From positions 20,252-84,251 of the forward strand of contig NZ_JVSP01000003.1 in the NCBI RefSeq assembly GCF_001061665.1: a DNA stretch of 64,000 nt, given 5' to 3'. A model generated the notes under the pieces. The model saw only the letters and a program-made list of their open reading frames with translations. It was not told the DNA's origin and searched no databases. The stretch is from Rothia mucilaginosa. GTDB taxonomy: Bacteria > Actinomycetota > Actinomycetes > Actinomycetales > Micrococcaceae. Positions 9,008 to 29,300 of the stretch are shown one piece after another (position 1 is the first letter of the stretch; every line of letters starts with the position of its first letter). The position numbers were made by a program, and so were the translations under genes.

Positions 9008-11641
9008 ATGAGCGAAGAACAGCAGAACGAAGTGACCGGAGCTGACGTCGTCAGCACCGGTGACACCGAGATCGTGGACCACCACGGCCACATTGAACAG
9101 GTGGACCTGCAAACTGAAATGCAGCGCTCCTACCTGGACTACGCGATGGCCGTCATCATCGGTCGTGCCCTGCCGGATGTCCGTGACGGCCTCAAGCCCG
9201 TGCACCGTCGCGTCATCTACGCAATGTACGACGGCGGTTACCGCCCGGACCGCGCCTTCAACAAGTGCGCCCGCGTGGTCGGCGACGTCATGGGTCAGTT
9301 CCACCCCCACGGCGATAGCGCCATCTACGACACCCTCGTGCGTCTGATTCAGAGCTGGATTATGCGCTACCCGCTGGCACTGGGACAGGGCAACTTCGGC
9401 TCCCCCGGTAACGATGGCGCAGCGGCTCCCCGATACACCGAGACGAAGATGGCCCCCATCGCCCTGGAGATGGTGCGCGACATCAACGAGGACACCGTTG
9501 ATTTCCAGCCCAACTACGACGGCAAGTCTCTCGAGCCGACCGTTCTGCCCTCTCGCATCCCGAACCTGCTGGTTAACGGCTCCTCGGGTATCGCCGTGGG
9601 TATGGCGACCAACATTCCCCCGCACAACCTACGCGAGGTGGCCGAGGGCGTGGAGTGGTTCCTGAAGAACCCGCACGCCACCAACGAAGAGCTGCTGAAC
9701 GCTCTGATGGCTCGCATCAAGGGCCCGGATTTCCCGACCGGTGCGCAGATTCTGGGCACCAAGGGTATTGAGGATGCGTACCGCACCGGCCGTGGTTCGA
9801 TTACCATGCGTGCCGTGGTCAACGTCGAGGAAATCCACGGACGCACCTGCCTGGTCGTCACCGAGCTGCCGTACCAGGCAAACCCGGATAACCTGGCCAT
9901 CAAGATTGCCGAGCTCATCAAGGACGGCAAGGTCACCGGTATCGCCGACCTGCGCGACGAGACTTCGGGTCGTACCGGTCAGCGCTTGGTGATTGTGCTC
10001 AAGCGTGATGCTTCCCCGAAGGTTGTGCTGAACAACCTGTACAAGCACACCCAGCTGCAGGAGAACTTCTCCGCGAACATGCTGGCCATCGTGGACGGCG
10101 TGCCCCGCACCCTGTCCCTGGACGCTTTCGTGCGCCACTGGGTCAACCACCAGCTGGATGTTATCGTCCGCCGTACCCGCTACCGTCTGCGCCAGGCGGA
10201 GGAAGAGGCGCACATCCTGCGCGGCCTGCTCAAGGCCCTGGATGCTCTGGACGAGGTTATCGCCCTGATTCGCCGCTCCCCCACCGCGGACGAGGCGCGC
10301 ACCGCTCTGATGGAGTTCCTGCAGATTGACGAGGCTCAGGCTCAGGCCATCCTGAACATGCAGCTGCGTCGCCTGGCCGCCTTGGAACGCCAGAAGATTC
10401 AGGACCGCCACGACGAGCTGATGCGCATGATCGCCGAGTACAACGCAATCATCGCTTCCGAGACTCGCCAGCGCGAGATTATCTCTGAGGAGCTGGGCGA
10501 GATCGTGAACCGCTACGGCGATGAGCGTCGCACCCAGATCATGTACGGCTACAACGGCGACATGTCGATGGAAGACCTCATCCCCGAGGAGGAGGTCGTG
10601 GTGACGATTACTCGCGGCGGCTACATCAAGCGCACCCGCAGTGATCAGTACCGTAGCCAGCACCGCGGCGGTAAGGGCATCAAGGGTGCCTCCCTGCGCG
10701 GTGATGACGTGGTGGAGCACTTCTTCGTGACCACCACGCACAGCTGGATTCTGTTCTTCACGAACCTGGGCCGCGTGTACCGCGCGAAGGGCTACGAATT
10801 GCAGGAAGCCGGCCGCGACGCGAAGGGTCAGCACATTGCGAACCTGCTGGAGTTCCAGGGCGGCGAGCACATCGCCCAGGTGATGGAGCTCAAGAGCTAC
10901 GAGGACGCTGAGTACCTGGTGCTGGCAACCCGTGGCGGCATGGTGAAGAAGAGCCGCCTGAGCGATTACGACACGAACCGTACCGCGGGCCTGATCGCCA
11001 TCAACCTGCGCGAAGGTGACGAGGTTGTTTCGGCCTTCACCGTTTCGGCTGCCGATGACATCCTGCTGGTTTCTCGTAACGGTATGTCCCTGCGCTTCCA
11101 TGCGGATGACGCTTCGTTGCGCCCCATGGGTCGCTCGACTTCCGGTGTGACCGGCATGAAGTTCCGCGAGGGTGACGAGCTGATTTCTGCCAACGTGGTC
11201 ACTGAGGGCTCCTATGTCTTCGTGGTGACTGAGGGTGGCTACGCGAAGCGCACGAGCGTGGATGAATATCGCGTTCAGGGTCGTAACGGTTTTGGCATTA
11301 AGGTTGCTAAGCTTGTGGAGGATCGTGGCGCCCTGGTGGGTGGCCTCATCGTGGACGAAGAGGACGAGGTCCTGGTCGTGATGTCCAGCGGCAAGGTTGT
11401 TCGTTCGAATGTGAATGAGGTTCCCGCGAAGGGACGCGATACCATGGGTGTTATCTTTGCAAAGCCCAGTGAGGGCGATTCGATTATCGGTGTAGCCCGT
11501 AACCAGGATCGTCAGCTGGACGACAGCGATGATGAAAACACTGAGAATGCCGAGGCGGCAGACGATACTTCTGCGGCTCCCGGCACGGATAACGAGGGTG
11601 AAGCGGCGGCTGCCGACCTCACCGCTACTGGAGGTAACTAA
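9008..11641 (+). CDS. gyrA: DNA gyrase subunit A
   Basis: An 877-residue DNA-cleaving subunit. The catalytic tyrosine is Y143 in APRYTET. The quinolone-determining segment reads GDSAIYD at 102-108, keeping the Ser and Asp (equivalent to E. coli S83/D87) of sensitive enzymes. The C-terminal half contains the beta-pinwheel repeats that wrap DNA, and an acidic Asp/Glu/Ala tail follows. The ATG at 9008 after GAGGG was preferred to a TTG at 8996. The stop overlaps the next ATG by one base (TAATG). Confidence 0.98.
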
Positions 11642-12231
11642 TGAGCAGCACTCCCGCGAGCTCCTCTTCCGCGTCAGCGCAGCGTTCGGCAGCAGCTGGT
11701 GCGTCTAAGAAGGGAGCCCCTAAGTCTGGTGCCCGCCGCCCGGCTCAGGCACGTTCAGGTCAGGCCCGTCCCGGAGCCGCTAAGCGTCCTGCCGGCAAGC
11801 GCCCGGTGAATGCTAAGCGTCCGACGGGTTCGCGTCGCCAGCTGGTGCGCCCCGCGCCTCGTTCGAAGATTCGTCGCGCGCGCCTGGTGGTGCAGAAGGT
11901 CGATACCTGGTCGGTAGCAAAGCTGATCTTCCTGCTGTCGATTGCTCTGGGTATCGTGACCGTCGTGGCCTCGGTGATTCTGTGGCTGTTCCTGCAGGCT
12001 TCGGGTGCCTTTACCGGTGTAAACCAGCTGATTAGCTCGCTGGGTACCGGTTCGACCACCGTGGATATCTCGCAGATGATTTCGCTGGGGCAGGTGGCTC
12101 TGGTAACCACGATTTTTGCCGTGGTGAACACCGTGGTCTTCACCCTGCTGGGTATGATTGCCGCTATCCTGTACAACCTGGCTGCAAAGCTGGTGGGTGG
12201 CGTGACCCTGACCCTGAGCGACGAGTCTTAA
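11641..12231 (+). CDS. DUF3566 membrane protein downstream of gyrA
   Basis: A 196-residue protein. An N-terminal 80-residue Ala/Lys/Arg/Pro-rich cytoplasmic stretch is followed by a DUF3566 domain with two membrane segments (about 100-122 and 145-175) and the end KLVGGVTLTLSDES. The family sits immediately after gyrA across actinobacteria (M. tuberculosis Rv0007). Its role is not established. It shares the TAATG overlap with gyrA and is probably co-translated. Confidence 0.88.
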   Translation: MSSTPASSSSASAQRSAAAGASKKGAPKSGARRPAQARSGQARPGAAKRPAGKRPVNAKRPTGSRRQLVRPAPRSKIRRARLVVQKVDTWSVAKLIFLLSIALGIVTVVASVILWLFLQASGAFTGVNQLISSLGTGSTTVDISQMISLGQVALVTTIFAVVNTVVFTLLGMIAAILYNLAAKLVGGVTLTLSDES

Positions 12232-24379: not shown

Positions 24380-24982
24380 TTAGTCCTCCTGAGTGTACGG
24401 GGGCTGAACAACCATCATCGTGTCGATGGCCGACTGTAGATCCCTGCGGTAACGGTTAAAAGCATTTTCGATGAGCGGAACATCGCCGCTTGCCACCGCC
24501 TCCTGCGGGGAAATGAGCGGTAGCGTCTGGTATTCCTCCACCAGGCTGAGCGCGGTGTGGGTCAGCAGGCGGGCGCGGCGCAATGCCTCAGCATGGCCCA
24601 TGCCCAGCGACTGAAATTCGTGAGCCATCGCCACCACCGGCTTCAGCTCCCGCGGGTGCAGAGCCAGGCTCAGACGCACCACCTCGGGGCACTCGCGGAT
24701 GGGGTACAGCAGTGAGAAGAGCGTGTCGCCGCGCTGAATCATGGAGGCACGCACAGCCTCTACCGTCGGCTCGGCCTCCTCCGACATCGACTTCGGGGCG
24801 CGGGCCAGGATGTAGTCCGCCAGCAGAATGAGTAGCTGCTGCTTATTCTTCACGTGGTAGTACAGGGCACCGGGAGCCACGTGAAGCTCCTGAGCGAGGC
24901 GGCGCATCGAAAGGTCCGCCAGACCGTAGGTCGCCAAGACCTCGTAGGCGGTATCTAGAATCTTTTCACGGGAAAGTACCAC
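24380..24982 (-). CDS. TetR-family transcriptional regulator
   Basis: A 200-residue regulator with N-terminal helix-turn-helix LSMRRLAQELHVAPGALYYH (about residues 24-43) and a helical ligand-binding C-terminus. It starts with GTG at 24982. A TAAAAT -10 lies 6 bases before that codon on the minus strand, so the mRNA is probably leaderless. It precedes galK, with a terminator between them. Targets are unknown; self-regulation is usual in the family. Confidence 0.88.
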   Translation of the reverse strand: MVLSREKILDTAYEVLATYGLADLSMRRLAQELHVAPGALYYHVKNKQQLLILLADYILARAPKSMSEEAEPTVEAVRASMIQRGDTLFSLLYPIRECPEVVRLSLALHPRELKPVVAMAHEFQSLGMGHAEALRRARLLTHTALSLVEEYQTLPLISPQEAVASGDVPLIENAFNRYRRDLQSAIDTMMVVQPPYTQED

Positions 24983-25274
24983 GTCTCTATTTTAGGGTGT
25001 TTGGCGCTCCGTCATTGACATCATGCACCGGCTGGAAAACAGAAAACACGTAAATTACGCGAGAGAAGCGGTGTAATAATTGGTGATTCTCACGGCTCAG
25101 AAATAAACGTTTCGCGTTCTAAAAGCGACTTCGATATTAGGCGCTCCTAAGAAGTTGAGTGGCACGAGATATGCCACGCTCTGGGCATAAAAATGCTCCC
25201 GGAGCCCCTAAAAACCGCCAATGCAGGCGAACCTCGCGAGCGCATCCCTGGCGCACGGGTGTTTAATAGCCGGT

Positions 25275-26309
25275 ATGAGCAATGCATTTTCTGAACTAAT
25301 CGAGCGGGCGGGCTCCGAACAGCCCCTGACCCGCGATGAGATCCACACCCTCCTGGTGGACGGGGAGGGTCAGGACTTCGCCCTGATTGAAGCGGCCTCC
25401 ATTCTGCGCCGCAACGAATTCCGCAACATGATTGCTGTCCACACCGAGAACGAGGAACTTGCCGACGCTCTAGGCACCCGCTCCATTGCCGTGGACTCCT
25501 ACGACGTTCTCGACATCTCCCGCGACATTGATTCTGAGGAGCTGGCCGAGACCATTGAGCGCATTGCCGCTTCCCCCGCTATTGGCGTGACCGTACTGCT
25601 GCCGAAGAACGCTGTGCCCATGATGCTCATGCGTGTGCTGTCGATTCTGCGCCTGGCCGCCCCCTCCAAGGTGATTCACCTGCCCGAGGGTTACGACCAG
25701 TCCCTGCGCTCGCTGACTTCCCTGGCCATGCACGTGGTCAGCGCCATTACCATTACCGACGATATTGAGCAGTGGCCCATGGTCAACGAGATTCTGAAGT
25801 CTCTGCGCCACGGCGGCATTGTCATCTCCGGCACCGGTGGACGCGATGCCCTCGCTGGCTACCTGCGTTACCTCTCCGACCTCGGTGTTGACCTGATGGG
25901 TCACCGCGAGGCGCGCGGCTCCGCCTGCGGTTCGGTCGACGGTGGCGGCTGTGGCTGTGGCTCGGGTGGCTGCGGTAGCCACGAGGAGCCGGCACCTTCC
26001 GCCGGTGGTTGCGGTTGCGGCTCGGGCGGATGCGGTTCCTCCGCTGAAGCTCCGGCTGAGGCTCACGGCCACTCCCACGGTGATGGCGGTTGCTGCGGCG
26101 GCCATGACGAGCCGAAGGAAGAAAAGGGCGGTTGCTGCGGCGGCCACGACGAGCCGAAGGAAGAAAAGGGCGGTTGCTGCGGCGGCCACGACGAGCCGAA
26201 GGAAGAAAAGGGTGGTTGCTGCGGCGGCCACGACGAGCCCGAGCCGGTCGTGGAGGAAGCTCCCGCTGGCGGTTGCGGCTGCGGTGCTGGTGGGTGCGGC
26301 TCTAAGTAA
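25275..26309 (+). CDS. Biotin-synthase-like remnant fused to Cys/His-rich metal-binding repeats
   Basis: A 344-residue protein in two parts. Residues 1-217 have no cysteine. They faintly resemble the two ends of BioB-type radical-SAM proteins (FALIEAASILRRNEFRNMI near 33-51; VLSILRLAAPSKVIHLPEG near 120-140), with the CxxxCxxC-bearing middle missing. Residues 218-344 are low-complexity with 18 cysteines: three GGCGCGxGGCGS motifs, HGHSHG, then GGCCGGHDEPKEEK repeated 3.7 times. The tail resembles the nickel-binding tail of SlyD (GCCGGH, GGCGC). Metal binding or storage is inferred. The ATG at 25275 was preferred to an in-frame start at 25221. It is monocistronic with a strong hairpin after it. 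Confidence 0.75.
   Translation: MSNAFSELIERAGSEQPLTRDEIHTLLVDGEGQDFALIEAASILRRNEFRNMIAVHTENEELADALGTRSIAVDSYDVLDISRDIDSEELAETIERIAASPAIGVTVLLPKNAVPMMLMRVLSILRLAAPSKVIHLPEGYDQSLRSLTSLAMHVVSAITITDDIEQWPMVNEILKSLRHGGIVISGTGGRDALAGYLRYLSDLGVDLMGHREARGSACGSVDGGGCGCGSGGCGSHEEPAPSAGGCGCGSGGCGSSAEAPAEAHGHSHGDGGCCGGHDEPKEEKGGCCGGHDEPKEEKGGCCGGHDEPKEEKGGCCGGHDEPEPVVEEAPAGGCGCGAGGCGSK
26085..26240 (+). repeat. 42-bp tandem coding repeat, 3.7 units
   Basis: Units at 26085-26126, 26127-26168 and 26169-26210, then a 30-bp partial unit to 26240, encode GGCCGGHDEPKEEK. They are almost identical in DNA, so copy number can change by slippage or recombination. Confidence 0.95.
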
Positions 26310-26354: not shown

Positions 26355-26402
26355 TTTTCCCCTGAATAACCTGCTGAAAAGCAGAGATATTCAGGGGAAA
26401 AC
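26355..26402 (+). terminator. Terminator after the metal-tail gene
   Basis: TTTTCCCCTGAATA pairs with TATTCAGGGGAAAA, with an inner CTGCT/AGCAG stem; A and T runs flank it, so it can work on both strands. Confidence 0.8.
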
Positions 26403-28295: not shown

Positions 28296-28469
28296 CCTCT
28301 CTGGAGAAGGCCGACGGCCGGTTGGTAGGTCTACCGATTCCCGCTCCGGGGTATATATGCCCTGGAGTAGGGAATAAGGAAGACTAACGCTCAACCATCA
28401 CCTAAAATGGGACAGGAAGCGTTGAACACGCTGTAGCTCTCTCAAACTCACAATGCATTGAAAGTAGAC

Positions 28470-28967
28470 ATGGACTTCAAGACTCTCTCGCCCGCGTACC
28501 TGACCTCCCTTGGCGCGATTTTTTGTGGCGCGCTCTTGATCGGCTCCTCAACCCCCTGGGTTCTGTGGCTGGGATGGATTCTGCTGATTGCCGCCCTGTG
28601 CCTGAACGTTCTGGCCGTGCTGCTCTCGGTGGGTAAGGCAAAGGGTGACCCCGTTCCGGCGCTCGTGACGAACCTGGACGGACTGGAGTCCTCCGTTGAA
28701 ACCCGCATCCGTGAGCGCGCCGAGCACCGCCGTGAAGAGCGCGGGCGCCGTGAGGAAGAAGACGCCCACGCCGCCGAACAGCCCTCGGAGGCTCACGAGC
28801 AGGAGGCGGAGCCGGCTCAGCCCGAAACGGCTCAGGACGAGCCTCGCGAAGAGGAACCCACGGAGTCTCAGCCGGTCGTGCAGGCCCCTGCTGGTCGCCT
28901 GGGTGTACTGCCTTCTCGTTCCCGCGCGGCTGGCCGTGCCCCGAAGCCCCGCTCGAACGTTCGCTAG
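28470..28967 (+). CDS. Small two-helix membrane protein with acidic/basic tail, paralogue A
   Basis: A 165-residue protein beginning MDFKTLSPAYLTSLGA. Two membrane helices (about 8-26 and 30-50) precede a long cytoplasmic, Glu/Arg/Pro/Ala-rich disordered tail ending in a basic patch (SRAAGRAPKPRSNVR). The ATG at 28470 was chosen over a TTG at 28458. The membrane part is paralogous to the next gene (LSPAYL...GWIL...CLN). I recognise no family. The acidic middle and basic end suggest a scaffold, but there is no direct evidence. Confidence 0.7.
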   Translation: MDFKTLSPAYLTSLGAIFCGALLIGSSTPWVLWLGWILLIAALCLNVLAVLLSVGKAKGDPVPALVTNLDGLESSVETRIRERAEHRREERGRREEEDAHAAEQPSEAHEQEAEPAQPETAQDEPREEEPTESQPVVQAPAGRLGVLPSRSRAAGRAPKPRSNVR

Positions 28968-28976
28968 GTGGGGGTT

Positions 28977-29300
28977 ATGAACACAAAGTTTCTGCTTTCC
29001 CCGGCGTACCTGGTCTCCATCGCGCTGCTACTCTCGGGCGCGGTGCTCTCGGGTGGTCGGTTCATGCTCATTGGGTGGATTTTGTGCATCCTTGGTGTGT
29101 GCCTGAACGCTATGACCCTGGTGGTGTTGACCAACCGCGAACAGCTCTACGCGATGGACGCTCGCGCGGCCGCCGGCACGCTGCGCCGCGGTTTCTCGGA
29201 GCGTTCGGTACCCGTGGTGCAGCGCGTTACCCCCGCCGCCGATGAGCCTGCCGAGGCTCCCGAAGCATCGGATACCCCGGTCGCGGAGGAAAGCCGCTAG
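28977..29300 (+). CDS. Small two-helix membrane protein, paralogue B
   Basis: A 107-residue protein starting MNTKFLLSPAYLVSIALLLS. It has the same two-helix unit as the preceding gene (LSPAYL, then GWILCILGVCLNAM) and a shorter acidic tail. It begins 9 bases after the preceding stop, so the pair is an operon that arose by duplication. A terminator follows. Function is unknown. Confidence 0.72.
   Translation: MNTKFLLSPAYLVSIALLLSGAVLSGGRFMLIGWILCILGVCLNAMTLVVLTNREQLYAMDARAAAGTLRRGFSERSVPVVQRVTPAADEPAEAPEASDTPVAEESR

Follow-up and report, generated by a model that had tools for sequence, protein, structure and literature searches.

The locus and the gene

The window analysed here is a 64,000-nucleotide stretch of contig C3 of the 2.24 Mb genome of a Rothia mucilaginosa strain; the R. 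mucilaginosa clade dwells in the human mouth. Nucleotides 25275–26306 of its plus strand encode a protein of 344 amino acids and are followed by a TAA codon; the ATG at 25275 is conserved, and an ATG further upstream at 25221 is absent from genomes G013 and G014. We call this gene and its homologues the short gene, to set it apart from full-length bioB. The features of the locus are as follows:

24380–24982, minus strand: divergent TetR-family regulator, candidate BioQ-like biotin regulator (present here in all 25 short-gene genomes)
25260–25274, plus strand: −10-like TGTTTAATA directly 5' of the ATG (by eye)
25275–26309, plus strand: whole gene, core-deleted BioB paralogue with a Cys-rich tail, 344 amino acids (translation, profile alignment, tree)
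25275–25454, plus strand: residues 1–60, biotin synthase N-terminal helices and first barrel strand (alignment, model)
25443–25514, plus strand: residues 57–80, short linker replacing the BioB CxxxCxxC loop and, probably, strands 2–4 (alignment)
25515–25892, plus strand: residues 81–206, last barrel strands and biotin synthase C-terminal part (alignment, model, weak TIGR00433 match at 114–160)
25926–26306, plus strand: residues 218–344, Gly/Cys/His-rich tail with all 18 cysteines (translation)
25944–25979, plus strand: GGCGCGSGGCGS unit 1, residues 224–235 (motif search)
26004–26039, plus strand: GGCGCGSGGCGS unit 2, residues 244–255 (motif search)
26085–26239, plus strand: 42-bp tandem array coding for GGCCGGHDEPKEEK units, of which the window and its three closest relatives have 1–4 (repeat scan)
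26268–26303, plus strand: GGCGCGAGGCGS unit 3, residues 332–343 (motif search)
26355–26401, no strand assigned: terminator-like 14-bp perfect inverted repeat 3' of the gene (by eye; loop too long for the terminator scan)

Further along the window, two small tandem genes at 28458–28967 and 28968–29300 have no Pfam or NCBIfam match at E ≤ 0.001. The neighbour clusters c4 and c10 recur at the short-gene locus in many genomes of the genus.

An earlier note on this DNA, made from the sequence alone, placed every cysteine of the protein in its tail, and this is correct: all 18 lie at residues 218–341, within the last 127 residues, and residues 1–217 (the body) have none, an arrangement that 18 randomly placed cysteines would adopt with a probability of 7 × 10−9. 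The motif counts given there are also right, in that GGCGCGxGGCGS occurs three times (from residues 224, 244 and 332), GGCCGGHDEPKEEK occurs three times with a fourth near-unit, GGCCGGHDEP, and HGHSHG occurs once. The 42-bp repeats, described in the note as nearly identical and possibly recent, form an array of 3.7 copies with a 98% match, and since the number of GGCCGGHDEP units per tail varies among close relatives (four in the window protein, three in G014, two in G013 and one in G027) the array is recent and labile. There is no second copy of the tail in the window genome, where the sole other match is a frame with a stop (E 0.09), and phmmer found nothing for the tail among PDB sequences at E ≤ 1. 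The best named matches of the window gene among the contigs searched are from Rothia sp. RSM386 (90% identity) and Rothia aeria (70%); this contig scan used one peptide pattern and gave nine loci, all from Rothia, one of which was caught through its bioB gene.

The body of the protein and biotin synthase

The body had been lined up by eye in the earlier note with the two ends of biotin-synthase-type proteins, and that reading is borne out by profiles, phylogeny and structure prediction. In hhalign, a profile of nine short-protein bodies (residues 1–217) matched one of eleven Rothia biotin synthases (BioBs) at 99.94% (E 2.5 × 10−37) over profile columns 1–215, with one gap of ~145 BioB residues, whereas the same body profile gave 0.3% (E 0.2) against five lipoyl synthases of the genus, the one radical-SAM family used as control. 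When the family profile was searched against PDB sequences with hmmsearch, Veillonella parvula biotin synthase 8vdw was found (2 × 10−9) in two stretches, one per end. Pairwise, residues 3–60 and 78–253 of the short protein of G032 align with BioB residues 7–64 and 212–378, and residues 5–56 of the window protein align with Rothia BioB 9–60; in the alignment BioB residues ~65–211 are missing from the short family.

The missing stretch includes cysteines 70, 74, 77, 114, 147 and 207 of the G018 BioB, of which the first three are the SAM-cluster triad and the last three correspond to E. coli C97, C128 and C188 (by alignment, with positions assigned by offset). The [2Fe-2S] ligands of E. coli BioB are given as C97, C128, C188 and R260 in PMC11099021. 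The three cysteine ligands (C114, C147 and C207 in Rothia BioB) are deleted, and at the R260 position the window protein has His135; the CxxxCxxC motif, whose loss in homologues the earlier note had proposed to look for along with variation in repeat number, is absent from the short copies listed. The only trace of bioB among NCBIfam models is TIGR00433 at residues 114–160 (E 0.014–0.044), with a score of 13.0 bits against a curated cut-off of 225 bits. Two other database matches were set aside: the TPR-type Pfam family PF08321, which is below threshold (E 0.19 with the whole protein and 0.068 with the body) and was dropped in favour of the BioB match, and an ArsR regulator (E 0.18), phmmer's only PDB match for the single body sequence.

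AlphaFold2, run with nine sequences, gave a model of residues 1–217 with a pLDDT of 85.9 and a pTM of 0.85, in which helices span residues 2–13, 20–28 and 34–49 and strands span residues 52–56, 77–80, 104–108, 133–136 and 157–159. By our reading of the model, five of the eight barrel strands are retained, and strands 2–4 would, from model and alignment together, be those that were lost. Among 1000 Foldseek candidates the best VIA-align match is biotin synthase 8vdw (Z 16.1, rmsd 2.7, 185 residues aligned), followed by 8vcw, HydE, PylB, MqnE, 1r30, HydG, NosL and ThiH; the best 23 listed entries are all radical-SAM enzymes with Z ≥ 11.3, and the next is homocitrate synthase with Z 7.4. Foldseek alone returned no match at E ≤ 0.001, its best being 8vdw (1.5 × 10−3) and the HydG chain 4rtb (3.0 × 10−3). 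The R. amarae protein was modelled as well (pLDDT 84.9, with residues 232–250 below 50), and its four-cysteine tail comes out as disordered.

The profiles, the VIA-align ranking, the lipoyl synthase control and the tree (below) show that the short protein shares ancestry and fold with BioB and the radical-SAM enzymes. Profile alignment, phylogeny and fold strongly support the conclusion that the body consists of the two ends of a biotin synthase whose Fe-S-bearing middle has been lost. It has in common with BioB (TIGR00433, radical-SAM superfamily) the fold pieces at both ends, the locus and a position nested in the BioB tree, but it is without residues ~65–211, the CxxxCxxC motif and every cluster cysteine, has His at the R260 position and scores far below the family cut-off. 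Because the cluster ligands are missing, the short protein should be unable to run BioB or radical chemistry, and because the gene fails the catalytic hallmarks of BioB we do not file it as a biotin synthase despite its descent.

The tail and the cysteine-rich insert of BioB

All 25 copies of the short protein found in the genus end in a tail with at least four cysteines. There are 4–5 in 18 of the 25, in or near the motif GCGGNCxCGSGGCG, and 9–18 in the seven genomes of the window clade, all of which are without bioB (a count that omits the first tail cysteine, included here, gives 8–17 for this clade). Fourteen of the 17 Rothia BioBs examined carry 2–4 cysteines in an insert N-terminal to their RRRGxGT end motif, and three of seven BioBs from other genera have five there. 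Such Cys-rich inserts, of which CGASGGCGGCSSGACG is an example, precede the RRRGxGTxxPN end at L091, L092, L097 and other Rothia bioB loci. The short proteins are without the C-terminal RRRGxGT motif, and since their alignments with BioB run into the Cys insert, the tail is probably descended from the insert of the parent BioB.

Distribution of the short gene and of bioB

Among 35 genomes of the genus, 25 carry the short gene, six carry full-length bioB only and four carry neither, two of these four being 65–72% complete. A bioB gene scores over the cut-off in 18 of the 35, namely in 12 short-gene genomes and in the six bioB-only genomes, which leaves 13 short-gene genomes, the window genome included, with no bioB over the cut-off. 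Among the 12 we count G017, where bioB is split into two pieces by a frameshift beside an intact short gene (L094 ~10491–11737) and the larger piece is over the cut-off; in G032, which is 87% complete, the contig runs ~1 kb past the short gene with no bioB match. bioD and bioA are over their cut-offs in five and seven of the 35 genomes, respectively, and the biotin importer BioY is over its cut-off in all 35; none of bioA, bioD and bioB is over the cut-off in the window genome.

All 25 short genes lie at one locus, shared with a galactokinase-like gene and a TetR gene that are the same throughout. Where both genes are present, bioB directly follows the short gene in 10 of 12 genomes, precedes it in G034 (where it stands between the short gene and the TetR gene) and lies elsewhere in G007, so that the two are adjacent on the same strand in 11 of the 12. 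In four genomes without the short gene (G012, G022, G024 and G025) bioB occupies this same locus, with the galactokinase-like gene on one side and the antiporter gene on the other.

Outside Rothia no full-length copy was found among the matches listed from 295 family, 396 order and 394 class genomes (E limits 10−3, 10−6 and 10−12); these samples overlap, include Rothia and are not full censuses, and the number of candidates taken from each genome was capped. The matches from other genera are mostly longer frames matched in pieces, and only two are shorter than 330 amino acids: that in G098 is a 293-amino acid piece in a 400-contig assembly, and that in G497 was rejected as a relative of the short gene, being a decayed bioB with stops that retains part of the Cys motif and a BioB-like end and has no Cys tail. 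The decayed bioB of G497 (L116 4982–5630) is unrelated and has an internal deletion and stops, in contrast with the conserved Rothia gene.

Regulation

A TGAAC-N3-GTTCA palindrome lies 5' of bioB in the Rothia loci examined, 16 of which are listed with bioB; the sites of G010 and G020 are also assigned to bioB by position. Among the sites listed, none is within 250 bp 5' of a called short gene (the short copy of G016 is outside the called-gene set, and the G016 site stands 5' of bioB), so membership of the short gene in the biotin regulon was set aside. The window genome has four sites with one mismatch, one of which (C16:170389–170403) is upstream of bioY, 267 bp before the domain match. BioQ is a TetR-type biotin regulator, and as sites at bioB and bioY are what a BioQ-like TetR protein would act on, the divergent TetR gene is a candidate for such a regulator.

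By eye, the −10-like TGTTTAATA precedes the ATG in all seven window-clade genomes, and a TTTAAT or TAGATT-type −10 box lies 6–7 bases before most short-gene start codons. A −10-like box this close to the start codon suggests that the short gene is transcribed separately as a leaderless message. Scans for sigma-70 promoters and terminators returned nothing at the short gene on its strand.

Origin and selection

A tree of 49 rows and 232 columns was built from 25 short proteins, 17 of the 18 Rothia BioBs (that of G017, split by the frameshift, was left out) and seven BioBs from other genera, with out_L035 entered as a fragment. All 25 short proteins form one clade with support 100/99, nested in Rothia BioB; some branches of the tree are long and the program warns of a long-branch join inside the short clade, the clade-defining branch itself having the 100/99 support, and the Rothia BioB of G011 falls among the other genera. 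The presence of bioB changes at least seven times on the short-protein tree, or six if G032 is left out. Two of the losses, in G028 and G030, are recent, with the palindrome intact: in G028 it is followed by a 22-codon stub that starts like BioB (L098 10471–10573), and in G030 the opening codons of bioB continue into a frame of 122 residues that is not BioB (L100 ~9101–9490).

The reading frame of the short gene is uninterrupted in all 25 genomes that carry it. In the six pairs among G000, G013, G014 and G027 (the window genome and its three nearest relatives, all without bioB) the dN/dS of the body is 0.036–0.086, close to the values for neighbouring genes in the same pairs, which are 0.051–0.096 (TetR), 0.047–0.100 (galactokinase-like) and 0.053–0.193 (antiporter). 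Pairs of a genome without and a genome with bioB gave 0.058 (G017–G028) and 0.165 (G019–G030, with few changes). Of the 21 pairs in the window clade three have no dS value and the other 18 span 0.036–0.409, the four highest (0.28–0.41) all involving G033; these values come from a simple Nei-Gojobori script, which saturates in distant pairs. The short gene is thus conserved and intact, with its body under purifying selection, and is not decaying. The "radical-SAM-like remnant" of the earlier note therefore stands as regards its radical-SAM (BioB) ancestry, but "remnant" does not describe an intact gene under such selection.

Proposed function and alternatives

The main function of this core-deleted BioB pseudoenzyme would, in the reading that we prefer and to which we give a probability of roughly 55%, be the binding of metal or an Fe-S cluster through its tail. 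A bioB gene would have been duplicated in place in the ancestor of most Rothia species, and one copy would have lost ~145 internal residues, including the CxxxCxxC loop, the three [2Fe-2S] cysteine ligands and presumably strands 2–4. The same copy would have lost the C-terminal RRRGxGT, so that it now ends in what was the parent's Cys-rich insert. Its present product would be a small cytosolic metal- or Fe-S-binding protein, in which the tail cysteines may hold a thiophilic metal and the conserved part-barrel body may dock on a partner. It may have started as an Fe/S-supplying helper of the neighbouring BioB, and would now function without BioB in half of its hosts, the tail of the window clade having become longer, with its 9–18 cysteines and GGCCGGH units. 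Metal storage or chaperoning is a plausible task for such a protein, and none of the neighbouring genes scanned points to a metal pathway; with only 4–5 cysteines, about one site, in 18 of the 25 copies, a storage role does not fit those genomes.

Could the short protein instead serve BioB directly? It would then be a partner protein with a tail that restores the sacrificial [2Fe-2S] cluster, a counterpart of the mycobacterial biotin synthase auxiliary protein BsaP, for which PMC11099021 describes a unique predicted structure and three conserved cysteines. Like the short protein, BsaP is a small Cys-bearing protein often encoded beside bioB (PMC11099021), and the adjacency of the two Rothia genes on one strand in 11 of 12 genomes, together with the likeness of the tail to the BioB Cys insert, with which the tail also aligns, speaks for such a role. 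However, the short protein differs from BsaP as described there in being a BioB derivative with a Cys-rich tail that persists without bioB. Rothia BioB moreover still has, in all 11 sequences aligned, a cysteine equivalent to E. coli C128, a position at which enzymes of the BsaP type have Ala (PMC11099021), six genomes have bioB and no short gene, four of them with bioA over the cut-off, and no biotin-type palindrome is among the sites listed before the short gene. With 13 of 25 short-gene genomes lacking bioB, help to BioB is not the current role in those genomes; it may be the ancestral one, and as a general account of the family we think it unlikely.

We consider it more doubtful still that the remaining barrel acts as a sensor or carrier that binds dethiobiotin, biotin or a cofactor, the tail being secondary. 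Body residues inherited from BioB are conserved, for example around 116–150, and the single locus of the gene also holds a TetR gene, perhaps that of the biotin regulator, but all the cluster cysteine ligands are gone with the stretch that bore them, no palindrome is listed for the gene, and it stays in genomes without bioA, bioD and bioB over the cut-off. Finally, a functionless decaying bioB pseudogene with a tail grown by slippage is very improbable. Many genomes of the genus do lack bioA, bioD and bioB, the 42-bp array is prone to slippage, and four pairs with G033 have raised dN/dS. Against this, none of the 25 copies has a broken frame, near relatives, some of them with no biotin synthesis genes, have body dN/dS values far below 1, and true decay looks different, as in the frameshift of G017, the stub of G028, the fusion of G030 and the stops of G497.

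Relation to known metal-binding proteins

The preferred reading, metal or Fe-S binding through the tail, invites comparison with two kinds of metal-binding protein. The earlier note called the tail SlyD-like, and the Cys/His-rich tail of E. coli SlyD, a nickel-binding FKBP-type isomerase, does contain GCCGGH and GGCGC (seen in PDB 2kfw). The likeness holds for these short motifs but not for the bodies: no FKBP family is among the Pfam matches of the short protein at E ≤ 10, and its body matches biotin synthase instead. In addition, the SlyD tail is richer in His, and no nickel gene is among the neighbours scanned. The short protein may work as BsaP or the SlyD tail does, and we file it under neither. 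Metallothioneins carry many cysteines in a short Gly/Cys-rich stretch, and the short protein is similarly Cys-dense in such a stretch; it differs from them in having a folded, BioB-derived body in front and, in 18 of 25 copies, only 4–5 tail cysteines, and no metallothionein is among its Pfam matches at E ≤ 10.

It is a tentative proposal, to which we give slightly less than an even chance, that the protein represents a metalloprotein of a new kind, in which one large internal deletion removed the catalytic core of a radical-SAM enzyme, the part-barrel became a docking scaffold and the parent's Cys-rich insert became a metal or Fe-S carrier; it would have outlived both its enzyme and its pathway and turned into a multi-site metal carrier in the window clade. 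Searches of the open literature, outside which most subscription journals fall, brought up no recognisable account of such a protein, which is weak evidence for novelty.

Implications

In the short gene a large internal deletion has made a conserved, non-catalytic protein from a radical-SAM enzyme, and as the parent enzyme is still present in sister species the steps of this change can be tested. The finding raises the questions of what ligands a part-barrel may bind, what purpose the Cys-rich insert serves within BioB, and whether a tail of this type may deliver Fe or S to the sacrificial cluster. To our knowledge there is no agreed account of how BioB restores the cluster that it uses up, and the short protein, as a natural part of BioB supplied in trans, would provide a handle on that step.
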